The position numbers and the translations under genes are program-made. DNA of 64,000 nucleotides. It comes from Polycladomyces abyssicola. GTDB taxonomy: Bacteria; Bacillota; Bacilli; Thermoactinomycetales; JIR-001. The notes under the pieces are model-generated. The model made no database searches, was not told where the DNA came from, and worked only from the letters and a program-made list of their open reading frames with translations. The stretch covers positions 546,001 to 610,000 of the forward strand of contig NZ_AP024601.1 of the NCBI RefSeq assembly GCF_018326425.1, given 5' to 3'. Below are positions 3,403 to 64,000 of this stretch, piece by piece (positions within the stretch are counted from its first letter, which is position 1; each line of letters starts with the position of its first letter).

Positions 3403-4619
3403 TGGAGGTCGGTTCGCGGGATTGGGTTGTGATGACGTCGGACGGCGAATTTTTGCACGTACCCAAACAGCATCACCATGCCCAACCCGGAGATGAAGTG
3501 ATCGTGCCCGATCCCCATATGAATCCGGTCTGGAGATGGGGTTCCATCGCCTTTGCTGTGGCGGCCTTCATTGCCGGTATTGTCCTGTTATTGCCGTGGA
3601 TGATCCCTTCGGACACGAAAGCGGAAACGTACGTATACATCGACATGAATCCCAGTCTGGAGCTTGGCATCAACGGTCAGCAGGAAGTGGTTATGGTACG
3701 GCCGCTCAATCAGCCTGCCCGACAGCTGATGCGAGGGATGGATTGGCAACGACAAAATATCCGGGAGTTTGTAGTCTCGTTTCTCGAACGGGCGCGTGAT
3801 CGGGGATATATCCGGGGTAAAGAAGGGATCGTGTTGTCTGGTGTCTCTGACAAAGGATCAGTGAAACCTCTGTTGGAGCAGATTCGTCGGGAGATCCGAC
3901 ACCAGCCTCATCTGGCCACCGCATTGAATGTGTACACTTTGCCGTTGCCCAAGGAACTACGCGAAAAAGCGGAAGGCACCGGGTTGTCGCTCGGCAAATA
4001 CGCTCTCTGGTTGTTGGCAAAGCGGGAAGGGGCTCCCATCTCGACGACTGTCGTGGCCAATGCATCGATCTCCCAGTTGATGAGTCAGCTGAAAACGGTG
4101 GAACCGGTGTTGACAGATCCACCGCCGGAGAAACAATGGGAGAATTGGCTGCAGGAACCGTCCCCGGCTACACAACCGGGTGATCAGGCTCCTCAAGATT
4201 CGGGCAACACCGACGAACCACCTGCACAGTCGGAGGAAAATCCGGCCCCTGCGGTGACGGAACCATCCCCTTCGGATGGAACGGCTACCGATTCACCACA
4301 GACATCAGATGTGGAAAACCCGTCCAACAGTGCATCGGACAATGGACAAACCACGGCTCCCGAGAGCGACTCGGAAACGTCACCGCCAAACCAAAACCCG
4401 TCGGATGACCAGGGAAGTCAAGAGAGCAGCGGCGGTGACGGAGGTCAGGATCAGAAATATCCGGAGCCGCAATCGACGAATCCGCCCGACGACTCCGCAA
4501 ATGATACGGGTCAGGATGAAGGGACGCACACCAACCAGACGGAGGGGGCACCGTCTTCCTCCGTCGAACCCCAGTTCTTATCGGCTATGGGCTTTGTCGC
4601 TCCGCTCCCGCTCTCTTAG
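3384..4619 (+). CDS. rsgI: Anti-sigma-I factor RsgI with disordered C-terminal tail
   Basis: A single-pass membrane anti-sigma factor of 411 residues that would hold SigI inactive. Residues 1-45 form the cytoplasmic RsgI domain that binds SigI. Residues ~54-73 are the membrane helix. The conserved periplasmic-side segment begins YVYIDMNPSLELGINGQ (83-99); the Asn-Pro at 89-90 is the bond at which RsgI proteins are reported to self-cleave. Residues ~225-395 are low complexity, rich in Pro, Ser, Thr, Gln, Asp and Glu, with no carbohydrate-binding or peptidase domain. The GTG start at 3384 has AAGGGGGG upstream and lies inside sigI, so the two are translationally coupled. The tail probably spans or senses the cell wall (inference). 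Confidence 0.88.
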   Translation: MRKGIVMEVGSRDWVVMTSDGEFLHVPKQHHHAQPGDEVIVPDPHMNPVWRWGSIAFAVAAFIAGIVLLLPWMIPSDTKAETYVYIDMNPSLELGINGQQEVVMVRPLNQPARQLMRGMDWQRQNIREFVVSFLERARDRGYIRGKEGIVLSGVSDKGSVKPLLEQIRREIRHQPHLATALNVYTLPLPKELREKAEGTGLSLGKYALWLLAKREGAPISTTVVANASISQLMSQLKTVEPVLTDPPPEKQWENWLQEPSPATQPGDQAPQDSGNTDEPPAQSEENPAPAVTEPSPSDGTATDSPQTSDVENPSNSASDNGQTTAPESDSETSPPNQNPSDDQGSQESSGGDGGQDQKYPEPQSTNPPDDSANDTGQDEGTHTNQTEGAPSSSVEPQFLSAMGFVAPLPLS

Positions 4620-45707: not shown

Positions 45708-45917
45708 GAGAGAAATATCAGATTTCCCAGGAAATGAGGCCTGATTGGCTTCTTCCTCCTAAGTAGTGAGTAGAAGGCTCTTCCCAGGCTCATGACAGTG
45801 TCCAACTATTCAAGACCTGTTCCAAGGGTTAGCAGTTTCACACGAGTGCCATGAGCGACCTTTTGAGCACAGACATACCCTAGGGCGTATCTGGTGAATA
45901 CTGTCCACATTGCTCCT

Positions 45918-46611
45918 TTACGGAATGACCAAACGTGCTCTAGTTGTTATGTTCATAGTGCATCCTTTGCCGATCGATCGATAGGGGCAATCCGCCATCT
46001 CGGCAATATACAGTACCGCTTCTTTATTTCGGCTGGTTTGGGTCGCAATTTGTTCATCGGGTGAGTAGAATCCGGGGTTGGATGTACGAGGATACATTTC
46101 AAATGTATATGCGAAGATTTTATACGTACCATAAGCCCAGTCCGTCAGATCCCAGTCGGTGATGTACGAATCGCTCGCTTGTTGGAGTGTGTAGCCGTTG
46201 GATTGCGCCATGACTCTTCCCATGGCAACAAACACATCATGATCATCTTGTGTCATGTCTCGGCACATCCGTGTACGTATAGCCATATGGGTACAAGCTC
46301 AGATCGCTGTAGGTATTGAATGTGATGGCAGTGCGGATTTGTTTGTTGCCGCCGACTACTCGACTGTTGATAAAATCGCGCAGTCGGGCGGTTTCCGGAG
46401 CGGAAAACGGTGCCGAGCCGCGATAGGTCTCAATGGACGGATTGCCGCTGGAACCGCCGCAGCACCCCCATTTGTATCCGTAATTTCGGTTCAAATCGGT
46501 GCCGACATAAGAAGAACCGCTCTTGGGTTGTCGGTTTTTTGCGCCAGAAGTCGTACGAGTTGTTGCGGATGTCGTACTCTCCACCGTCACCACCGGTGTG
46601 CATTCGTATCA
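45918..46611 (-). pseudogene. Decayed carboxypeptidase T (M14 zinc carboxypeptidase)
   Basis: Three reverse-strand frames together give the C-terminal two-thirds of carboxypeptidase [20 protein letters not shown], then [20 protein letters not shown] to [11 protein letters not shown], then [10 protein letters not shown] to the end. At least two frameshifts split it. The signal peptide, propeptide and the first two zinc ligands are gone, cut off at a terminator near 46612. The third zinc ligand, His in the usual TFHTYSE, reads TFNTYSD. The catalytic glutamate in FTFEMYP remains. Clearly inactive. Confidence 0.92.
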
Positions 46612-50127: not shown

Positions 50128-50580
50128 CGGTCAAAATCGAAGAGTGGACCAATTTGATGCCGGATGTATTCCGTAAGCACTACGGGATCCATTGGGATTG
50201 GTGCATACCGAGTGGTTCGTGGTTTCTTTCCGGTGTTTAATTTATGAAACATATCACATATTAACGATATAAGAAAATCACTGTCATAATATCGTCACTT
50301 ATTTTGTGCAATTTATCACAAATTCTTTTGCAATCCTTTTATATACTGAAAATGCAAGGGTTCCACTGATCTAGGGGTGTTGGGAAGATACCCTCTTTGT
50401 TTTGTCACCCTCTGTCTGTCCACCCTCACCGTCTCCTAATAAATAGAAAATGAGATAGGTTTGGCGCGGACACCGCGCTTTTTTCTTTTTAATTTCCTCC
50501 GTTTCCCATCTCCCGATGTAAAAGCGAAATAATACAATAAAATCAGAATCCCCCGTACATACGAAAACAGGGGGATTTTT
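50128..50580. other. AT-rich gap ahead of DNA ligase remnant
   Basis: After a possible frameshifted tail of the preceding small gene (to ~50177) the bases to 50546 are AT-rich and hold no gene I can support. AATCCCCC (50547-50554) and GGGGGATT (50570-50577) form a hairpin with a T run immediately before the ligase remnant starts. Confidence 0.5.
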
Positions 50581-51204
50581 GTGTTTATCGAGCCAATGCT
50601 TGCACATCCATCTAATCAGCCTTTTGACAGTGACGATTACATTGCTGAACCGAAGATGGACGATTTTGGCTGCTCCTTTCGACGTGGACGGCATACGAGC
50701 ATACACGCGGCATGGGAACTAGGTGACCGATCGTTTTCCCGAACTAAGTATGCCAAAAGTGCCACCGGGAACAGTGTTAGGCGGCGAATTGATTGTAACC
50801 GGTGATGGTGGCCGACCGGATTTTGATGCGGTCATGAGACGGTTGCAGACAAGAAAGCAAGCGATCGAACGATTGATCTCTTCAACGCTTGCTCGAAGCT
50901 GGATCTGGAGGGCATTATGCTGAAAAAGAAGGACACTCCATATCTAGTGGGGAAACGGTCAAAAGCGTGGCAAAAGGTGATCGCCTACAAAGACGTGGAA
51001 GTGGTCATCACGGGATATCGAAAAGGTGAGTTTGGATGGTTGATCGGGATCGAGGATGACAGCGACATCCGGCCAGTTGGTATTTTGGAACTGGGTGTAG
51101 GCCCAGCGGAGAGAAGGGCGCTTTATGATGTGTCTAGCCTGATAAAAATCACCGATAATGAGCAGTTTGTATACTTGGAACCACGTTTGATGTCCGCAGT
51201 TTAA
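50581..51204 (+). pseudogene. Broken ATP-dependent DNA ligase (LigD/YkoU-type)
   Basis: Three frames in succession resemble a ~300-residue ATP-dependent DNA ligase. First frame: FIEPMLAHPSNQPFDSDDYI then EPKMDDFG, where the AMP-accepting lysine motif normally reads EPKxDGxR. Second: PPGTVLGGELIVTGDGGRPDFDAVMRR. Third: LEGIMLKKKDTPYLVGKRSKAWQK to the C-terminus. There are frameshifts near 50710 and 50890 and missing sequence between them. It is a dead relic of a non-homologous end-joining type ligase. Confidence 0.85.
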
Positions 51205-51401
51205 AATAACAGAATCGGAGTAATCGCGATGCCAGTGGGATTAGTTCCCACAGGCAAGGTTGCAACAATAGTATTATTTGCGGTGTCAATCACCGATACC
51301 GTGTCAGGACCCTGATTTGTGACATAAGCGCGTAAACCGTCAGGCGTGATCGCGATTGCAAAAGGAATACCTAAGCCCATTACCGTAGCCACAATCGGGG
51401 G
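51201..51401 (-). pseudogene. Fragment of a YVTN beta-propeller protein
   Basis: Reverse-strand frame with IPFAIAITPDGLRAYVTNQG and NNTIVATLPVGTNPTGIAIT, about one and a half blades of a YVTN-type propeller. A functional protein needs six or seven blades and a signal peptide, neither of which is here. Codons upstream in the same frame are not propeller-like. A relic of a surface protein; it abuts the ligase remnant. Confidence 0.65.
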
Positions 51402-53349: not shown

Positions 53350-53400
53350 AACACCTGTTGCGCAACACCTGTTGCGCTGACGTGGACAATTGTTACGCAC
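53350..53400 (+). promoter_or_regulatory. Probable enhancer (UAS) for acetone carboxylase operon
   Basis: AACACCTGTTGCGC occurs twice back to back (53350-53363 and 53364-53377), creating the palindromes TGTTGCGCAACA and GCGCAACACCTGTTGCGC. A related TGTTACGCACA follows at 53391. All lie 50-100 bases upstream of the -24 element, the usual place for binding of a sigma-54 activator. Confidence 0.65.
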
Positions 53401-53449
53401 AGGCCTTCGGTTTTTTGCGGGATAGGTGCGTTCGCATCCAAGTAATCGT

Positions 53450-53465
53450 TGGCACGTGGTTTGCT
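53450..53465 (+). promoter_or_regulatory. Sigma-54 (-24/-12) promoter of acxABC
   Basis: TGGCACGTGGTTTGCT matches the consensus TGGCACG-N4-TTGCW at every defined base, with GG and GC 10 bases apart. Start point near 53476, leaving a ~74-base leader before acxA. Confidence 0.92.
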
Positions 53466-53549
53466 TAGATAATGGGTGAAACGTTTTCCCTTCGGGAAGG
53501 CGTGAAGTTCATTCATACCGATGGTGAATTTGGAGGGGAGTGATGGTCT

Positions 53550-55694
53550 GTGTCCACGCGCAAACCGCAAATCCTAGCCATTGATGCCGGAGGAACGATG
53601 ACCGACACGTTTATCATCGATGACCGGGGGGAGTTTGTCGTCGGGAAGGCGCAAACGACTCCGGAAGACGAGTCGGTCGGCCTCTTGAATTCCTCTGAGG
53701 ACGCTCTCTTGTACTGGGACATGACGGTAGAAGAGGCGTTTCCGCAGCTGCTGACGGGGGTCTATTCCGGCACCGCCATGCTGAACCGACTCGTGTCCCG
53801 TAAAGGGCGTAAGGTCGGATTGATTGTGAACAAGGGCATGGAGGACTTCCACCGGATGGGTCGAGCCGTACAGTCGTACCTCGGATACTCGTATTCGGAC
53901 CGGCTTCATCTCAACACACATAAGTATGATCCGCCGTTAGTACCCCGCGAATGGACACGTGGCGTGACGGAAAGGATCGACATGTTCGGGAACGTTGTCA
54001 TCCCGCTATATGAACACGAAGTGGAGCCGATCGTGCGGGAATTGGTCGAAGAAGGCGTGGAGGCCATTGTCATCAGCCTGTTGCATTCGTACAAGAATCC
54101 GGTGCATGAACGGCGCGTGCGCGACATCGCCCGCGAGACGATTCAAAAGATGGGTAAGGATATCCCGGTGTTCGCGTCAGTGGATTACTATCCGGTGCGC
54201 AAGGAGTCTCATCGGACGAACACAACCATCCTGGAAGCGTACGCGGCAGACCCTTCGCGTAAAACACTTGAGAAGGTCAACGAGAGTCTCCGTGAAAAAG
54301 GGAAGAAGTTTGACATCCGCGTCATGGCCAGCCACGGTGGGACCATTAGCTTTCGTGCCAACGAATTGGCCCGCACGTTGGTGTCCGGCCCGATTGGCGG
54401 TGTGGTTGGTGCCAAATATTTAGGTGAACATCTGGGCATCTCCAACATCGCTTGTTCGGACATTGGCGGAACCAGTTTTGACGTGGCCATGATTACCCAA
54501 GGGGACTTCAGTATCAATACCAGTCCGGATATGGCACGTTTGGTACTGTCGTTGCCGTTGGTGTCAATGGACTCCATTGGCGCAGGTACCGGCAGCTTCG
54601 TCCGTGTCGATCCATATACGAAGTCGATAGTTCTCGGACCTGATAGCGCCGGGTACCGGGTGGGCGTTTGCAATCCGGATGGAGGGCTGGACACGATCAC
54701 CGTGTCCGATTGCCACGTGGTGCTGGGCCTCATCAATCCTGACAATTTCCTCGGGGGGCAGGTTAAGCTGGACCGGGAGCGGGCGTACGAGGCTGTCAAA
54801 ACCCAGCTGGCCGAACCGCTCGGGTTGTCGGTGGAAGACGCATCCTACGGCGTCATCGAGCTGCTCGAGTCCCAGTTGCGTAACTATTTGGAATCGATGA
54901 TCATGGGCAAGGGCTATTCACCAACACAGTTTGTCTGTTTCTCCTACGGTGGTGGGGGACCGCTGCATACCGCCGGTTACGTCAAAGGGCTGGGGTTTGA
55001 GGATGTCTTGGTGCCTGCGTGGGCGGCTGGTTTTTCCGCGTTCGGCTGTGGAGCAGCCGATTTCGAGTATCGGTACGATATGACCTTGGACATCAATGTC
55101 CCCGACGCGGCGACAGAAGAGCAAAAGGCCGAAGCGGCTGGTGTTCTGCAACGGGCTTGGAGCGAACTTCAGGAAAAAGTATCTGAAGAGTTTGTTAAGA
55201 ATGGATTTTCCCGTGATGAGGTCCGTTTCCGGCTGTTCTTCCGCATGCAGTACCAAGGCCAGCTGAACGATTTGGAAATCGAATCACCCCTGATGCGTGC
55301 CGAAACGGCGGACCACTGGGATGCGCTGGTAGCATCGTTCGAAGAAACGTACGCGCGGGTATATGCCAAAGCGGCACGTTCGCCGGAGCTCGGGTACACC
55401 GTTACGGGTGCTATTGTGCGTGGCGTCGTCGACGTGCCGAAGCCGAAGATTCCGGAAGAGCCGCTGGTCGGGGAAGAGCCGCCGAAAGACGCCTACCTTG
55501 GCAAACGGCGGGTATACTGGGACGGCAAGTGGGTCGAGGCCGACATCTGGGAGATGGAAGCCCTCAAGGCGGGCAACCGCATCAAGAGCTTCTCGATCAT
55601 TGAGTCCCCGGCGACCACCTTTGTCGTGCCCTTCGGATTTGAGACCGTTCTCGATAAGCACCGCATTTTCCATCTGCGGGAAGTGTCTCGCTAA
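53550..55694 (+). CDS. acxA: Acetone carboxylase beta subunit (hydantoinase A-like)
   Basis: A 714-residue hydantoinase/oxoprolinase-family subunit with the ASKHA-type ATP-binding pattern at AIDAGGTMTDTFIID (~10) and DIGGTSFDVAMITQGDF (~305). In acetone carboxylase the beta subunit uses ATP to phosphorylate acetone and bicarbonate. The 714-767-166 residue gene trio matches acxA-acxB-acxC of Xanthobacter and Rhodobacter in order and size, so this is acetone carboxylase and not hydantoinase. GTG start; GGAGGGGAG lies about 12 bases ahead. Controlled by the sigma-54 promoter upstream. Confidence 0.9.
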   Translation: MSTRKPQILAIDAGGTMTDTFIIDDRGEFVVGKAQTTPEDESVGLLNSSEDALLYWDMTVEEAFPQLLTGVYSGTAMLNRLVSRKGRKVGLIVNKGMEDFHRMGRAVQSYLGYSYSDRLHLNTHKYDPPLVPREWTRGVTERIDMFGNVVIPLYEHEVEPIVRELVEEGVEAIVISLLHSYKNPVHERRVRDIARETIQKMGKDIPVFASVDYYPVRKESHRTNTTILEAYAADPSRKTLEKVNESLREKGKKFDIRVMASHGGTISFRANELARTLVSGPIGGVVGAKYLGEHLGISNIACSDIGGTSFDVAMITQGDFSINTSPDMARLVLSLPLVSMDSIGAGTGSFVRVDPYTKSIVLGPDSAGYRVGVCNPDGGLDTITVSDCHVVLGLINPDNFLGGQVKLDRERAYEAVKTQLAEPLGLSVEDASYGVIELLESQLRNYLESMIMGKGYSPTQFVCFSYGGGGPLHTAGYVKGLGFEDVLVPAWAAGFSAFGCGAADFEYRYDMTLDINVPDAATEEQKAEAAGVLQRAWSELQEKVSEEFVKNGFSRDEVRFRLFFRMQYQGQLNDLEIESPLMRAETADHWDALVASFEETYARVYAKAARSPELGYTVTGAIVRGVVDVPKPKIPEEPLVGEEPPKDAYLGKRRVYWDGKWVEADIWEMEALKAGNRIKSFSIIESPATTFVVPFGFETVLDKHRIFHLREVSR

Positions 55695-55717
55695 CCTTTC
55701 AAAGGAGGGATTGTGCC

Positions 55718-58021
55718 ATGGCGATTCGCGAGAGCGATTTGGCTGCGAAACAGGAGCAGGCCAAGCAGATGCGGCCGATCGGATGGGACGGCAAGACATT
55801 GAAAGAGATGCGCCGCGAAATCGACGAATTGTCGAAGGAGACCGGGTATTATGCCGGTTTGAAGGAGCTGCCGTTCAAAGAGTCGGAACCGATCCGTTTT
55901 GAGAAAATTTTCGCCAAGCTCCGCGGTGGTGTTGTCCACGCCCGGGAGACGGCCAAACGCGTGGCTGCATCTCCCATTGTGGAACAAGAAGGTGAGCTGT
56001 GCTTCACCCTTTACACCCCGGAAGGCGATTCGGTGGTCACGTCAACGGGGATCATTATTCACGTGGGAACGATGGGTTCGGCAATCAAGTTCATGATTGA
56101 AAACGACTACGAGGAGAATCCAGGGATTGAACCGGGGGATATCTTCTGCAACAACGACTGTCAGGTGGGCAACGTCCATCCCTGTGACGTCCATACCATT
56201 GTCCCGATTTTCTGGAAAGGGGAACTCGTCGGCTGGGTCGGTGGCGTCACTCACGTAATCGACACCGGTGCCACGGCCCCCGGAAGCATGTGCGTCGGGC
56301 CGGTGAACCGCTACGACGACGGATACCAGGTGGCCTGCCGCAAAATCGGTCAAAACGATGAGCTGTTGCGCGATTGGCTGATCGAAAGCCAGCGATCGAT
56401 ACGCACCACGAAGTACTGGCTGCTTGACGAGCGGACTCGCGTGGCCGGCTGCCATATGATCCGCGACCTGGTGCTCAACATCATCGACGAAGAAGGAATT
56501 GACAGGTACAAGCAATTTATCCGCGAGATCATCGAAGAAGGGCGGCGCGGGCTCATCAACCGCCTGAAAGCGATGACGGTCCCCGGCAAGTATCGCCAAG
56601 TGGGGTTTGTTGATGTACCGTATCGGCATTCCGACGTGGATGTCCCGCCCTATGCCAAGGTCGACACGATTATGCACGCACCGTCGGAAGTCACCATTCA
56701 CCCCGACGGCCGCTGGGAGCTGAGTTTCGATGGCGCAAGCCGCTGGGGCTGGCACAGTTACAACGCACAACCCATCGCGTTTACCAGTGGCATCTGGGTC
56801 ATGATGACCCAAACACTGATCCCGAACGACCGCGTGAACGACGGAGCTGTTTACGCCACCAACTTCGTTTTACCCGAGGGGGGCTGGATGAACCCCGACG
56901 ACATCCGCACAGCGCACAGTTATGCGTGGCATTTCCTCGTTTCCGCGTGGAGCCCGCTGTGGCGGGGACTGAGTCGGGCCTACTTCAGCCGCGGCTATTT
57001 GGAAGAAGTGAATGCCGGCAACGCAAACACGAGTAACTGGCTGCAAGGTGGCGGGTTTAACCAGTACAACACCATCCACGCCGTGAACAGCTTTGAGGCA
57101 GCTGCCGAGGGTACCGGCGCCTCGGCCGTGCGGGACGGACTGGATCATGCGGCGGCGATCTGGAATCCTGAAGGCGACATGGGAGACATGGAAATCTGGG
57201 AGCTTGCCGAGCCATTGTTGTACCTTGGCCGGTCGATCAAACCCAACACCGGCGGGTACGGAAAATACCGCGGTGGTTGTGGCTATGAAACCCTGCGCAT
57301 GGTGTGGAACGCCAAGGACTGGACGATGTTCTTTATGGGTAACGGGTACATGTCGAGCGACTGCGGTTTGATGGGTGGATATCCAGCAGCAGCAGGGTAT
57401 CGCTTCGAAGCACACGGAACCGACCTGAAGGAGCGTTTCGAAAAACGGTTGCCGTTCCCGCAAGGCGGAGATCCGAATCCTGACGAACCACAGTACGAAA
57501 AGCTGCTTGAGGCGAAAGTCATCAAGCGTGACAAGCAAGCGATTACCACGGAAGCGATTTTTGACAACTACGACTTGTACCTCAACTACCTGCGCGGTGG
57601 GCCTGGGTTCGGCGATCCGCTGGAGCGCAAGCCAGAGCACATCGAAGTGGACCTCAATGGTGGGTACATCTTGCCGGAGTACGCTGAAAAAGTGTACGGG
57701 GCTGTGTTTACCCGCGACGAAAAGGGGCAATATCATGTTGACCCGGTGAAGACCGCGGAACGGCGTAAGCAAATCCGGCAGGAGCGGCTCAAGCGAGGCA
57801 AGCCGACCCGTGAGTGGATGAAGGAAGAACGCGAGCGCATTCTGCGCAAGGAAGCCGCTGTGCAGGTTCGGCACATGTACGCTTCAAGCTTTTCCTTGAG
57901 TGAGAAGTTCTTACAGGAATTCCGTTCGTTCTGGAACCTGCCGGAAAGCTGGATTGTGAGGGAAGATGAGTTGGAGGTACCCACGTTTGGGGCCAAGTTG
58001 AAACTGAGAGAAAGTCTTTAA
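55718..58021 (+). CDS. acxB: Acetone carboxylase alpha subunit (hydantoinase B-like)
   Basis: A 767-residue catalytic subunit. The manganese-site region reads NNDCQVGNVHPCDVH and later GGVTHVIDTGA, carrying the aspartate and histidines known to bind Mn in acetone carboxylase. Here phosphorylated acetone (as enolate) and CO2 from carboxyphosphate join to form acetoacetate. Full length, no damage. AAAGGAGGG stands ahead of the ATG, 23 bases after acxA. Confidence 0.92.
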   Translation: MAIRESDLAAKQEQAKQMRPIGWDGKTLKEMRREIDELSKETGYYAGLKELPFKESEPIRFEKIFAKLRGGVVHARETAKRVAASPIVEQEGELCFTLYTPEGDSVVTSTGIIIHVGTMGSAIKFMIENDYEENPGIEPGDIFCNNDCQVGNVHPCDVHTIVPIFWKGELVGWVGGVTHVIDTGATAPGSMCVGPVNRYDDGYQVACRKIGQNDELLRDWLIESQRSIRTTKYWLLDERTRVAGCHMIRDLVLNIIDEEGIDRYKQFIREIIEEGRRGLINRLKAMTVPGKYRQVGFVDVPYRHSDVDVPPYAKVDTIMHAPSEVTIHPDGRWELSFDGASRWGWHSYNAQPIAFTSGIWVMMTQTLIPNDRVNDGAVYATNFVLPEGGWMNPDDIRTAHSYAWHFLVSAWSPLWRGLSRAYFSRGYLEEVNAGNANTSNWLQGGGFNQYNTIHAVNSFEAAAEGTGASAVRDGLDHAAAIWNPEGDMGDMEIWELAEPLLYLGRSIKPNTGGYGKYRGGCGYETLRMVWNAKDWTMFFMGNGYMSSDCGLMGGYPAAAGYRFEAHGTDLKERFEKRLPFPQGGDPNPDEPQYEKLLEAKVIKRDKQAITTEAIFDNYDLYLNYLRGGPGFGDPLERKPEHIEVDLNGGYILPEYAEKVYGAVFTRDEKGQYHVDPVKTAERRKQIRQERLKRGKPTREWMKEERERILRKEAAVQVRHMYASSFSLSEKFLQEFRSFWNLPESWIVREDELEVPTFGAKLKLRESL

Positions 58022-58037
58022 ATAGGGGGAAACGTAA

Positions 58038-58538
58038 ATGGCGCAGGAATATGATCGCCGAACGATCGAAGAGCTGATCGACGGAACCGTCAGTTTCCCG
58101 AAACTAAAGGAGATGCTGTCGTCCTTTAAGGATCCTGGCCGGTTTGACACCTACGTGAGCATTTTGCAGGAGCGTGTGCCGTGGGATGACAAGATTTTGC
58201 TCCCATACGGTGAGCACTTGTACGTGGTGCTGAAAAAAGATGGCTCTCGCGTAATCAAGTGCGACTGCGGGCACGAGTTCGGCGATTACTGCCAGAACTG
58301 GAAGCTGAATGCTCTTGTGTATGTGCGTGACGACGAACAGAAGATGACCGAGCTGTATCCCAAGCTGCTGGCGCCCGATCCGCAGTGGCAAGTCATCCGC
58401 GAATATTATTGCCCCAACTGCGCTACGCAGTTGGAGGTGGAAGCCGTCACCCCGTGGTATCCTGTCATTCACGACTACGAACCTGACATCGATGCTTTCT
58501 ACGAACAATGGTTGGGTCGTCCTGTTCCTCAGCCATAA
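58038..58538 (+). CDS. acxC: Acetone carboxylase gamma subunit
   Basis: A 166-residue small subunit. Two cysteine pairs, KCDCGHEFGDYC (~75) and YYCPNCATQLEVE (~128), form a zinc site. This protein family is found only with acetone/acetophenone-type carboxylases, which confirms the identity of the operon. Ribosome site AGGGGG before the ATG. A GC-rich hairpin at 58547 follows. Confidence 0.93.
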   Translation: MAQEYDRRTIEELIDGTVSFPKLKEMLSSFKDPGRFDTYVSILQERVPWDDKILLPYGEHLYVVLKKDGSRVIKCDCGHEFGDYCQNWKLNALVYVRDDEQKMTELYPKLLAPDPQWQVIREYYCPNCATQLEVEAVTPWYPVIHDYEPDIDAFYEQWLGRPVPQP

Positions 58539-58546
58539 GACATACC

Positions 58547-58572
58547 AAGCCCCGCCGGTAGTGGCGGGGCTT
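58547..58572. terminator. Hairpin between acxC and the convergent regulator gene
   Basis: AAGCCCCGCC, loop GGTAGT, GGCGGGGCTT; very stable, but with poor T runs on both strands. Confidence 0.65.
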
Positions 58573-58585
58573 ACGTATTACTTCA

Positions 58586-60604
58586 TTATGGGTTTCCAGC
58601 GCGGATGATGGCCCTCTTTTCAATGCCTAGTTTTTTAAGTCTACGGTATAGCGTGGTTCGGGCAATGCCGAGACGGCGGGCCGCCTCCGACAGGTTTCCG
58701 CCCGTTTCCGTTAGAATTTGCAATAACCGCTCCTTTTCCCCGGAAGGGCTGCCGTCACTGGTAAAAGTGAGTTCGTTTTTGGAATCGACCGTCAACAGTG
58801 TACAGGTTTGCTCCTGAGTGTCAGAGAGGTACGCGTTTCCGATGGCATGAGGGAAGTGGTCCGAGTCGATCCGGTCACCAGCACAGAAGAGCATGGCATG
58901 CTCGACGGCGTTTTCCAGCTCACGAACGTTTCCGGGCCAGTCGTATCGGTGAACGAGAAACGCCTTCAACTCGGGATCGATTTTGGGAATGGGACGGTTG
59001 TACTTGTCTGCGAATCGCCTGACAAAGTGATCGAGTAAAAGCGGAATGTCGTCACGCCGGTCCCGCAGCGGCGGAATGGCGATGCTGATTACGTGCAGCC
59101 GGTAAAACAAGTCAGCCCGAAAGCGTTTTTCCCGCACCATTTGGACCAAGTCACGGTGAGTGGCGGCAATGATCCGTACATCGACCTTGGCGGGACGGTG
59201 ACCGCCCAGGCGGAGAATTTCCTTCTCTTGTAGAACCCGAAGCAGGTGAACTTGAAATTCCAGGGGCATCTCCCCAATTTCGTCAAGAAAGAGTGTACCA
59301 CCGTCCGCTTCCTCAAATTTGCCCTTTTTTCCTTGTTTCAAGCCTCCGGTAAATGTTCCTGGCTCGTATCCAAACAGCTCCGCCGCGATCAGTTCTTTGG
59401 GGATGGCCCCACAGTTGATCGCAATGAAAGGCTTATCGCGGCGGCGGCTCGATGCGTGAATGGCGCGGGCAAACCGTTCTTTTCCCGTTCCGCTCTCGCC
59501 GAGGAGCAGCACTGGAACATCGGTGTCAGCCACCACTTCGCATTTGGTCATTGCTTGTACCATGGCCGGCGAATGACCGACGAGGTCTTTCCATGAAGGG
59601 TTGGAACGCATCAGTGGTTCCGATCGGTTGACGACAGATTTGTTGCGGATGATACAGAGAAATCCGATGCGCGCGTCGTCGTCGAAAACCTCCTCAATGG
59701 CGGTTACGTCGGGTGTTTGCGGTTGAAACGACTTACATTTTTGCGCATCCGCGTTGGATTGGTGATCGGTCATAAGCTGGTAGAGCAGTTGACGCAAGCA
59801 GGCGTAGTTGTTCGCTAACCAACGCCGAGCGGCTGTGTTGGCCTGAACCATCTGAAAAGACAAATCCAACACCACTACGCCATCTTGTGGATAGCGTCTA
59901 TGGGCTTCCCAAAATCGTTCCATTAACCGATAGCGGTGACGATCGGCCTCCTCGTTCAACCGTTGTTGAATCAATTGGGACGCGGCCACTACCAAGCCGA
60001 GACTGTGGGGTTGTGCATAGTTCCAGGGTCCGGTGAGGTCGACAACCCCGAGGATATTCTGGGTGATTGGATCAAAAATGGGGGCGGAGGAACATGTCCA
60101 GTCATGGACGCCCTCGCAAAAGTGTTCAGAGGCAAAAATTTGTACGGGCTGTCCAGTCTTCAAGCACGTCCCGATCGCGTTGGTTCCAATCGCCTCTTCG
60201 CTCCACTGCGAACCAACGACGAAATTCATTTTTTCCGCCCGCTGTAAAATAGATTGTTCGCCGCACAGGTACAAAATGAACCCATCGTGATTGCACAGGG
60301 TTAGGAGATGGCCCGTCTCTTCCGTCTGTTTTGCCAGCCGTTCCAATATGGGAAGGGCCAGTTGATACAAACGGAAATTGGCGATACGTTTTTGTACGTC
60401 CTCATCGCTTAACAGTACCGTTGTCTGCTGCCGTGTGGGATCCACACCGGTCTCCATACAGCGTTTCCATGAGTTTTGTACTACAGGTCGAACGGCACGA
60501 GGGATCTGACGCTCCTCGAGAAAACAATTCCATTGTCGGGACATTTCGAGCCGTTTATCGGCAATTTCGTAAGAGGACGTAAGGGCCAAATGCCTTTGGG
60601 TCAC
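58586..60604 (-). CDS. acxR: Sigma-54-dependent activator, AcxR/AcoR type, with GTFTGG loop
   Basis: A 672-residue enhancer-binding protein. N-terminal GAF-like sensor has EEAIGTNAIGTCLKTGQPV (~135). The AAA+ domain has GESGTGKERFARAIH (Walker A, ~368) and [12 protein letters not shown]; the C-terminal helix-turn-helix is LSEAARRLGIARTTLYRRL. The loop that touches sigma-54, normally GAFTGA, reads GTFTGG (bases 59359-59342). Start GTG 60604 has GGGAGGG 7 bases ahead. It faces the acx operon and is the likely acetone/alcohol-responsive activator of the promoter at 53450. The name is inferred from position. Confidence 0.88.
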   Translation of the reverse strand: MTQRHLALTSSYEIADKRLEMSRQWNCFLEERQIPRAVRPVVQNSWKRCMETGVDPTRQQTTVLLSDEDVQKRIANFRLYQLALPILERLAKQTEETGHLLTLCNHDGFILYLCGEQSILQRAEKMNFVVGSQWSEEAIGTNAIGTCLKTGQPVQIFASEHFCEGVHDWTCSSAPIFDPITQNILGVVDLTGPWNYAQPHSLGLVVAASQLIQQRLNEEADRHRYRLMERFWEAHRRYPQDGVVVLDLSFQMVQANTAARRWLANNYACLRQLLYQLMTDHQSNADAQKCKSFQPQTPDVTAIEEVFDDDARIGFLCIIRNKSVVNRSEPLMRSNPSWKDLVGHSPAMVQAMTKCEVVADTDVPVLLLGESGTGKERFARAIHASSRRRDKPFIAINCGAIPKELIAAELFGYEPGTFTGGLKQGKKGKFEEADGGTLFLDEIGEMPLEFQVHLLRVLQEKEILRLGGHRPAKVDVRIIAATHRDLVQMVREKRFRADLFYRLHVISIAIPPLRDRRDDIPLLLDHFVRRFADKYNRPIPKIDPELKAFLVHRYDWPGNVRELENAVEHAMLFCAGDRIDSDHFPHAIGNAYLSDTQEQTCTLLTVDSKNELTFTSDGSPSGEKERLLQILTETGGNLSEAARRLGIARTTLYRRLKKLGIEKRAIIRAGNP

Positions 60605-60994
60605 GGTTATCCCTCCCGAACGGGAACGTGATTTTTGGCGCAGGGACCCTGTACGATTACTGGAATATATCGACGCACATCCATTGTTGCATACCAATTT
60701 TAACTATACAAAAAATATAGATTCTTTACAACAGATGGGGCAATTTGTGTGATATCGCTTATATCACCGAGTTTTATACCATGATCATGGGCATGTGCAT
60801 GCGTTCAAACATATAGGTGGATACAAAATTTTGTGAGAGCAAATGGTGAAAAAAAGGGATTTGTTATACGAATGATCGAATGGATAGAACGAGAGGTATG
60901 AATTCCGATTGAAGTGTTTTCTGCTTGAGAAAAACATAGGCGTTTGCTTCCCACATGATTAGTAAATTAGGTACAGCAATATCGACGACCAGAA
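60605..60994. other. Intergenic region with orphan palindromes
   Basis: AT-rich gap between the activator and the iolC remnant. GTGATAT, CGCTT, ATATCAC (60750-60768) is a perfect 7+5+7 dyad; CCATGATCATGG (60780-60791) and GCATGTGCATGC (60792-60803) lie beside it. They look like operator sites for a dimeric repressor, possibly left from a former iol control region. No gene seen. Confidence 0.5.
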
Positions 60995-61180
60995 AGTGGC
61001 GATGACGCTTTTGGTGCTGCTTATGTGTATGGGTTGTTGCAGGGATGGGAGGTTCATCGCCGGTTGGCGTTTGCCTGCGCTGCGGGAGCGATCGTGGTCG
61101 GTCGTCACAGTTGTTCTGAGGCGATGCCCACCCTGGAAGAAGTGGAAAATGTGTTACTGCATAACCAAGTAACCAGTTGA
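60995..61180 (+). pseudogene. iolC: C-terminal remnant of iolC (5-dehydro-2-deoxygluconokinase)
   Basis: Frame reading SGDDAFGAAYVYGLLQGWEV, then LAFACAAGAIVVGRHSCSEAMPTLEEVE to a TGA at 61180. The HSCS.AMPT.EE ending is characteristic of IolC, and the front is the PfkB signature-2 (normally TGAGDAF), already altered. About 260 codons are missing. It ends 27 bases before iolA, the gene that shares an operon with iolC in Bacillus. So the inositol operon has been cut away, leaving only its end and iolA. Confidence 0.8.
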
Positions 61181-61207
61181 AACGGGGATATGGAAAGGAG
61201 CTGGAAG

Positions 61208-62668
61208 ATGATGCCCCAAACGCAAACGCGCACGTTGCGCAACTTCATCGGAGGACAGTGGGTGGAGGCTCAAGTGGAACGCCTTGAAACGGTTCCCAAT
61301 CCGGCGACGGGGGAAACGCTCGTACAGGTCCCCCTGTCCGGGAGGAGCGATTTGGACCGGGCAGTGGAAGCAGCCAAGGAAGCATTTCGCACGTGGCGGA
61401 AGACGCCGGTGCCGGTGCGTGCCCGCATCCTGTTCAAGTATCATCAGCTGTTGATCGAGCACAAGGAAGAATTGGCCCGCCTCATCACAGAAGAAAACGG
61501 CAAAAGCTACAATGAGGCGCTGGGAGAAGTGCAACGGGGCATTGAATGCGTCGAGTTTGCGGCTGGCGCCCCAACGCTGATGATGGGCAGTACGCTTTCC
61601 GAAATCGCCACCGATATCGAATCGGCGATGTATCGGTATCCGCTCGGCGTGGTCGGTGGGATCACCCCGTTCAACTTCCCGATGATGGTGCCATGCTGGA
61701 TGTTCCCGCTGGCCATTGCCTGCGGCAACACGTTTGTGCTCAAGCCGTCCGAAAAAACGCCATTGTCGGCCAACCGCCTCGCCGAGCTGTTTGCCGAAGC
61801 CGGATTGCCCGACGGTGTTCTGAACGTTGTTCACGGTGCTCACGAAGTGGTGAACGGATTGTTGGAACATCCGGACATCAGAGCGATCTCCTTCGTCGGT
61901 TCCCAACCCGTTGCCGAGTACGTGTACCGGACGGCGGCGGCCAACGGGAAGCGGGTGCAGGCCTTGGCAGGAGCCAAAAACCACTCAATTGTCATGCCGG
62001 ATGCGGATTTGGAAAAGGCTGTGCCGGCCATCATCAACGCCGCATTCGGATCCGCCGGGGAGCGGTGCATGGCTTGCAGTGTCGTCGTGGCGGTAGGGGA
62101 CATCGCTGATCAACTGGTGGATCAACTGGTGCAGGCGGCGAATGAAATCCGCATCGGTAACGGTCTGGAACCTGACGTGTTCCTCGGTCCGGTCATTCGC
62201 GATGCGCACAAGGAGCGGACGGTCCAGTACATCGTCACGGGTGAAAAAGAAGGTGCCAAACTGGTCCGGGACGGACGGAACGACGCGGTGGACGAATCCG
62301 GTTACTTCATCGGGCCGACGATTTTCGATGAGGTAAAACCCGGTATGAAGATCTGGCAGGATGAGATCTTCGCTCCCGTCCTGTCCGTGGTTCGGGTAAA
62401 CACCTTGGATGAAGCGATCGAAGTGGCCAATCAATCTTCGTTCGCCAACGGTGCTTGCATTTTCACCGACAGTGCCAAAGCGATCCGCCAGTTCCGCGAA
62501 GAGATCGATGCGGGGATGCTCGGTGTCAACGTCGGGGTACCGGCACCGATGGCCTTCTTCCCCTTCTCCGGATGGAAGAACAGCTTCTACGGCGACCTGC
62601 ATGCTAACGGCCGCGACGGGGTGGAGTTCTATACCCGTAAAAAAATGATCACCCAACGGCATCAGTAA
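61208..62668 (+). CDS. iolA: Methylmalonate-semialdehyde dehydrogenase (CoA-acylating)
   Basis: A 486-residue CoA-dependent ALDH turning malonate or methylmalonate semialdehyde into acetyl- or propionyl-CoA. [20 protein letters not shown] binds NAD; the nucleophile is in [11 protein letters not shown] (~286); [15 protein letters not shown] replaces the usual ELGGK, typical of MmsA/IolA, which lack the general-base glutamate. AAAGGAG stands before ATG 61208. In this strain it probably serves valine or beta-alanine breakdown, since the inositol genes around it are gone. Confidence 0.92.
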
Positions 62669-62675
62669 ACAGCAA

Positions 62676-62700
62676 CGCCCGCGATTGTGCGGGCGCTTTT
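62676..62700. terminator. Terminator between iolA and the nitrate reductase-like gene
   Basis: CGCCCGC, loop GATTGT, GCGGGCG, then CTTTTG on the forward strand. Usable in both directions. Confidence 0.75.
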
Positions 62701-62717
62701 GTTTCCTGTCAAATCAG

Positions 62718-64000
62718 TTACGACACCAGTACGGGTTCTTGTTGTCGGGATTGCGGCTGTTCCTTTACCGGCTCGACCCGAACCCGGACGATTTTGAATG
62801 CGGGCATCCGACTGGTCGGATCGAGCTTGGCCGGGATCAGGCGGTTGATAGATTGTTCCCCCTCCCAATGAAAGGGGGCAAAGACGGTGTCCGGGCGGAT
62901 GCGCTCCGTTATTTTCACCGTCAGCACAATCGAACTGACAGGAGAGGTGACGCGGGCCGGTTGGCCATCTGACAGTCCCAGCTGCTGGGCCGTTTCGGGA
63001 TGCATTTCCAGATAAGGTACAGGTGATTTTTCCATCAGAGCAGGGGTTCGTCTTGTCAGTGTACCGCTCAAATAATGATGGATGATGCGCCCGGTTGTGA
63101 GTGTGAGCGGCCATTCGTCTTCTTCTCGCCAATTTGAGGTTGGGGCATGGACGGGAACGAGTCGTGCTTTCCCGTCGGGATGACCGAACCGGCCATCTTC
63201 AAACAATCGTGGTGTTCCTTCCGGGCGTTCATGGGTGCAAGGCCAAAACAACCCTTGCGATTGTTCGATCCGTCCGTAAGTCATGCCGGAGTAATCCGCT
63301 TTTCCGCCCCGGCTGGCTTCGGCCAACTCGCGAAAGATGTCTTCCGCCGATTGGTAACGAAACCATTCTCCTTTTCCCAATGCCCGTGCCATTTCCATGA
63401 TCGTTTCCCAATCCGGTTTGGCTTGCCCCGGTGCGGGACGGACCGCTCTACGCAACAGAACCCGTCCTTCCAGATTGGTGATCGTTCCTTCGTTTTCCAG
63501 ATACGATGCGGCGGGAAGCACCAAATCGGCCATCTGTGCCGTCTCGGTCAAAAAGAAATCGACGACGACCAGCCAATCCAATCGTCGCAATGCTGATTCC
63601 ACCCGCGCGGCGTTGGGGCTGGAGATGATCGGATTGGAACCGAAGACAATCATGCCGCGGATCTTATCGGCCAGGATTTTGTCAAACATTTCATAAGCAG
63701 AAACGCCGGATCGAGGAAGCGTGTCCGGTGACACTCCCCAGATGCGGGCGATCCGTTCGCGCGCTTCAGGATCATCCAACAAACGGTATCCGGGCAGTTG
63801 ATCCGCTTTCTGTCCGTGTTCCCGTCCTCCCTGTCCGTTTCCTTGACCGGTGATCGCACCGTACCCGCAACCCGGTTTGCCGATCTTCCCGGTCAACAGC
63901 ACCAGATTGAGGAAATTGCGGACGTTTTGCACACCCCAGGCATGTTGCTCCACTCCGCGGGCGGTCAGGACAAACCCGGTGGAGGCTTGTCCGTAAGCCA
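62718..64000 (-). CDS. Molybdopterin oxidoreductase, assimilatory nitrate reductase-like catalytic subunit (partial)
   Basis: The C-terminal ~427 codons of a large molybdenum enzyme; the 5' part lies beyond the window. Blocks such as KIRGMIVFGSNPIISSPNA, DFFLTETAQMADLVLPAASYLENEGT and NLEGRVLLRRAV, with a final Molydop_binding domain (LTLTTGRIIHHYLSGTLTRR), match NasC/NarB-type assimilatory nitrate reductases. Formate dehydrogenase alpha is the alternative. It would need molybdate, which fits modAB in this window. Its frame is open to base 64000. Confidence 0.8.
   Translation of the reverse strand, partial: AYGQASTGFVLTARGVEQHAWGVQNVRNFLNLVLLTGKIGKPGCGYGAITGQGNGQGGREHGQKADQLPGYRLLDDPEARERIARIWGVSPDTLPRSGVSAYEMFDKILADKIRGMIVFGSNPIISSPNAARVESALRRLDWLVVVDFFLTETAQMADLVLPAASYLENEGTITNLEGRVLLRRAVRPAPGQAKPDWETIMEMARALGKGEWFRYQSAEDIFRELAEASRGGKADYSGMTYGRIEQSQGLFWPCTHERPEGTPRLFEDGRFGHPDGKARLVPVHAPTSNWREEDEWPLTLTTGRIIHHYLSGTLTRRTPALMEKSPVPYLEMHPETAQQLGLSDGQPARVTSPVSSIVLTVKITERIRPDTVFAPFHWEGEQSINRLIPAKLDPTSRMPAFKIVRVRVEPVKEQPQSRQQEPVLVS

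Follow-up and report, generated by a model that had tools for sequence, protein, structure and literature searches.

A truncated iolC in front of iolA in Polycladomyces abyssicola, very probably the deletion scar of a former inositol operon

Introduction

Truncated genes that mark the scar of a deletion are a common kind of feature in bacterial genomes. The locus of the thermophile Polycladomyces abyssicola described here shares their marks, namely two colinear flanks, one cut gene, and an intact version in a sister genome, but differs in that 181 bp at its joint have no match. In the iol operons of Bacillota, such as those of the same-genus genome G002, of G004, and of Marinithermofilum abyssi (locus L054), the end of iolC is followed by iolA, and this order is also found here. 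Compared with the iol locus of G002, however, P. abyssicola has lost the remaining iol genes together with the operator and the gene of the LacI regulator. Compared with full-length IolC (5-dehydro-2-deoxygluconokinase, TIGR04382), the P. abyssicola segment matches profile positions 259-308, and positions 1-258 are missing. IolA, a methylmalonate-semialdehyde dehydrogenase (MMSDH), also serves the oxidation of valine and malonate-semialdehyde.

The JIR-001T genome of P. abyssicola comprises 3,197,230 bp in a hybrid assembly, which was taken at face value (PMC8210696). Inositol is nowhere mentioned in that genome paper, and a literature search found no paper on the P. abyssicola locus of acetone carboxylase (acx) genes, iolC stump, and iolA; the one paper listed in which Polycladomyces and inositol both occur concerns endophytes. 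An earlier note, made from the sequence alone, had read this segment as the stump of a lost inositol operon into which the acx cluster was inserted, or to which it became joined. In this study, we compared the locus with those of relatives. The segment is, with high confidence, the deletion scar of a former inositol operon, a case of ordinary gene loss.

Materials and methods

The P. abyssicola genome (G000) is a single contig. The window, i.e., the whole stretch of 64,000 nucleotides analysed, covers its bases 546001-610000. The comparison set comprised 40 relatives (41 genomes in all), and the same-genus genomes were G001 and G002. The close comparison of the complete locus rests on one relative, G002, whose locus stretch on contig C42 (L039) was aligned to the window. 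IolA loci were the 80 listed of 584 confirmed relatives, some of them with less than 10 kb per side. In G000, iolB and iolG were covered by the DNA query of the missing segment only. The gene names acxA-C and acxR are to be taken as presumed.

Results

An iolC remnant precedes an intact iolA

The features at the joint and downstream of it are as follows.
60822-61002, no strand: junction DNA, 181 bp, GC 37.6% (alignment, searches, GC)
61003-61180, plus strand: 3' remnant of iolC, 58 codons and a stop (TIGR04382; identity to the end of G002 iolC)
61208-62668, plus strand: iolA, methylmalonate-semialdehyde dehydrogenase, intact (TIGR01722)
62718-63998, minus strand: molybdopterin oxidoreductase, the colinear downstream flank in G002 (Pfam search, alignment)

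The open frame at 60995-61180 translates as SGD-DAFGAAYVYGLLQGWEVHRRLAFACAAGAIVVGRHSCSEAMPTLEEVENVLLHNQVTS-stop and directly precedes iolA. Homology to iolC covers 58 codons (61004-61177) plus one base. The natural iolC stop ends at 61180, so that 27 bp separate it from the start codon of iolA (ATG, 61208); a further ATG lies at 61190. The 58 residues match TIGR04382 (iolC) best of seven families (E 1.2e-15, profile 259-308 of 309), match PfkB at E 3.8e-7, and are identical to the last 58 residues of the full-length, colinear iolC of G002, which marks the segment as IolC-derived. With 57.6 bits over 50 residues against a cut-off of 300 bits, it falls short of a full IolC kinase, and an active kinase is not expected from it. 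Thus, the remnant reported earlier was confirmed, and its length was corrected from 61 codons, since the residues SGD are junction DNA. For the same reason, the apparent alteration of the PfkB signature is the breakpoint and not a mutation.

The iolA product scored 644.7 bits against TIGR01722 (cut-off 448.5), which classes it as IolA/MMSDH, and is the sole G000 protein over the MMSDH cut-off. Compared with G002, iolA has a dN of 0.007 and a dS of 0.26. Its survival may be owed to its role in valine and malonate-semialdehyde oxidation.

The intact locus of G002 defines the missing segment

The gene order in G002 is acxABC, acxR, two ABC permeases and a binding protein (a sugar ABC transporter), iolG, iolE, lacI, iolD, iolB, a Cgl0159-like gene, full-length iolC, iolA, and the molybdopterin oxidoreductase; iolG, iolE, iolD, iolB, and iolC are each over the NCBIfam cut-off. 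Window 57754-60821 aligned to L039 1-3083 at 89% identity and window 61003-64000 to L039 14065-17061 at 92.6%, with nothing aligned between the two blocks. Colinearity continues along that G002 contig as far upstream as window 52907, and downstream to 2.6 kb beyond the window end. Hence the comparison with an intact-iol relative, as the earlier note had proposed, revealed colinearity on both sides and 10,981 bp of the G002 arrangement missing in G000: the spacer, the operator, and the genes as far as roughly codon 259 of iolC, which has 317 codons. The middle was not found elsewhere in G000, as expected of a deletion scar.

An iolC-like match was present in 30 of the 80 listed IolA loci and ended less than 400 bp before iolA in 26 of them. 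This position directly before iolA, also seen in G004, argues for the complete arrangement as the ancestral state and for the stump as derived from it. The only C-terminal-only iolC match among the 80, in L092, lies at a contig edge. Among the loci examined, no other relative carried the same stump, with or without acx. G001 lacks acx-beta and the iolC tail and has no iolD, iolE, or MMSDH over the cut-off; the whole locus is therefore variable within Polycladomyces.

Full-length iolC was not found elsewhere in G000. Nine PfkB matches were obtained, including the stump. The other eight either reached at best 212 bits against IolC (cut-off 300) or did not list IolC at E 1e-20, and their best models were ribokinase, KDG kinase, fructokinase, 1-phosphofructokinase (three), HMP kinase, and pyridoxine kinase. 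iolD and iolE, both over the cut-off in G002, had no counterpart over it in G000 or G001; iolD passed it in 13 of the 41 genomes. No relocated copy of the lost DNA was found in G000 or G001. The DNA query gave 14 matches of 43-97 bp, 12 of which fell on query positions 4416-4532, a repeat in the iolG-iolE spacer and not genes.

We propose that the ancestor carried acxABC-acxR followed by an intact iol operon, from the ABC transporter to iolA. On the branch to P. abyssicola, a stretch of about 11 kb would then have been lost that ran from the spacer upstream of acxR to roughly codon 259 of the 317 in iolC, so that the final 58 iolC codons and an intact iolA remained. A single event may account for the loss, either illegitimate end joining or recombination. 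Ku has a role in end joining, and since a Ku gene is present in G000, G001, and G002, end joining is a possible mechanism. The 181 bp at the joint, for which no source was found, leave a one-step cut short of proof.

The acx cluster was in place before the deletion

The features upstream of the joint are as follows.
53449-53465, plus strand: sigma-54 -24/-12-like site without mismatches, about 85 bp ahead of the start codon of acx
53550-58538, plus strand: acetone-carboxylase-type cluster of three subunits (Pfam matches Hydantoinase_A, Hydantoinase_B, Acetone_carb_G)
58586-60697, minus strand: acxR-like sigma-54 activator (Pfam matches GAF, Sigma54_activat, HTH_8), kept in G002

The acx cluster, colinear in G002, matches the NCBIfam acetophenone-carboxylase models, but under cut-off. 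With the site ahead of it, acx forms a unit of its own. Sites of the -24/-12 type are sigma-54 promoters. Eight such sites with at most two mismatches occur in the window (6 expected), and only that of acx is exact; it is kept in G002 and has one mismatch in G035, G022, and G011. acx-beta at 73% identity or more was found in five of the 41 genomes (G000, G002, G035, G022, and G011), and G035 has two additional matches at 52%. Relative to G002, acxR evolves faster (dN 0.077, dS 0.43) than the acx genes and iolA (dN 0.007-0.021).

The acx cassette with its sigma-54-like site (window 53391-58528) has 86.5% DNA identity to L157 5123-10241 of G035, a genome of another family. With the iolA of G035 only 71.5% identical, acx was likely transferred horizontally at some time. 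acxR had no match within the 19 kb fetched from G035.

The earlier note took the acx locus to have replaced the iol genes or to have been inserted into the operon, the junction being the insertion edge. The adjacency of acx and iol, seen only in G000 and G002, and the suggested transfer of acx speak for this explanation, but it is extremely unlikely: G002 has acxABC-acxR at the same place beside a whole iol operon, which refutes acx as the cause of the deletion, and the block common with G035 stops at the acx gamma gene (window 58528), 2.5 kb short of the joint. An insertion of acx at the junction would call for an acx edge at the joint and for iol relatives that lack acx between the same flanks; instead, G002 has acx and intact iol together. 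Since acxABC-acxR adjoins the intact operon in G002, the joining of acx and iol came first and the deletion later, and acx is no replacement. What holds of the claimed deletion/insertion junction near 60990 is the deletion, with its junction at about 61002 where the iol operon formerly stood. An earlier coming together of acx and iol holds in the looser sense of neighbouring: acxABC was absent at E 1e-5 from the flanks of the 80 named IolA loci listed of 584 relatives, and no iol genes lay near acx of G035, G022, and G011 in the stretches fetched. The order of events is thereby fixed at this locus.

Control of iolA and inositol use

A promoter-like site at L039 3215-3243, weak in that 2 sites were found against 1.6 expected in the stretch, was deleted with the iol genes, as was the palindrome GGGAAAGCGCTTTCCC at L039 3260. 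The palindrome recurs at L039 6376 (before iolG, 3 mismatches) and 6677 (inside iolG, 2 mismatches), and three copies in the locus were reached by 0 of 200 shuffles. These LacI-type palindromes (L039 3260-3275, 6376-6391, and 6677-6692) are possible sites of the G002 LacI regulator. With as many as 3 mismatches allowed, the window contains no copy of the G002 operator palindrome. Region 60600-61300 contained no forward sigma-70 promoter and two on the minus strand (mean 1.4 expected). Since acxR points in the direction opposite to iolA, the simplest origin of iolA transcription is a site within 60700-61200.

JIR-001 is predicted to have lost growth on inositol, and the species with the intact locus is predicted to use it. 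For annotation, the presence of iolA here does not imply inositol catabolism.

The joint consists of unmatched AT-rich DNA

The AT-rich gap reported earlier was reproduced, with a GC content of 0.35 at 60698-60821 and 0.38 at 60822-61002 against 0.53 in the window. Searches of G000, G001, and G002 with the 181 bp returned only the segment itself, a 42-bp flank in G002, and short matches of E 0.37 or worse; plasmids and phages gave no source beyond chance. Templated filler from the deleted segment was rejected (local score 23 against a mean of 22.96 in 100 simple shuffles). A single direct repeat of 8 bp, with its copies at 60706 and 60821, was taken as chance in AT-rich DNA, and there were no inverted or long repeats at the joint. 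Rfam on 60600-61250 gave one chance match, far under the gathering score.

The 181 bp might instead be the old spacer between acxR and the transporter, diverged past recognition, with the cut nearer 61000 and part of the iol control region kept. We hold this variant, which is compatible with a deletion, as a tentative possibility that is somewhat less probable than its opposite. The GC content (37.6% against 37.8% in the G002 spacer) and the length (181 bp; the G002 spacer measures 193 bp to the start of the transporter) agree with it, and the adjoining 60701-60800 is already strongly diverged from G002. However, identity with G002 breaks off sharply after 24 identical bases, the local and anchored alignments to the G002 spacer were equalled by 115 of 300 and 90 of 1000 shuffles, respectively, and the operator and a forward promoter match are missing, as described above.

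The unchanged stump suggests a recent loss

Over the remnant, the DNA differs from G002 iolC at 10 synonymous and 0 nonsynonymous positions (dS 0.29), which points either to a recent loss or to continuing constraint on the stump. Under neutrality, about 17-19 amino-acid-changing substitutions would be expected in the stump over the whole branch (half of the divergence), and 0 were seen. The iolC loss would then fall within about the final 16-17% of the branch, an estimate made without an outgroup that takes the branches as equal and the neutral rate as the same as dS. The unchanged stump protein thus indicates that the deletion scar is probably recent.

Continued use of the stump, e.g., as a translated leader coupled to iolA whose protein remained constrained after the deletion, would also account for this substitution pattern and for the open frame with its natural stop close to iolA. 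We consider such use very unlikely: a young deletion gives the same pattern, and the first start codon of the frame after the stop at 60968-60970 is GTG 61025, inside the stump, where no ribosome site is evident. Also very unlikely is selection for the stump, in which the fused joint and iolC tail would be translated as a short leader, or a new promoter would lie in the joint DNA, and iolA would have been released from inositol control and rewired for constitutive use or for use linked to valine. With the preferred explanation, a deletion scar, the locus would represent a recent, well-bounded case of catabolic operon loss in Polycladomyces.

Repeated sequences in the window and in the G002 locus

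The repeat in the G002 iolG-iolE spacer (L039 7499-7615) is a dispersed element that measures about 80-115 bp and recurs at several sites in both G000 and G001 (e.g., G000:C1:955543-955622 and G001:C13:29668-29750). It had no match in Rfam, its folding is barely better than that of shuffles (z -1.67), and a search of the window with 20 bases of it, allowing as many as 3 mismatches, gave no hit. Window 50264-51266 has many partial copies in G001 and G002. Three of its frames gave no Pfam match, and its broken frames resemble what we presume to be pieces of an ATP-dependent DNA ligase. A sequence of about 35-60 bp at window 45879-45945 also has many copies in G001 and G002 and is perhaps another dispersed repeat.
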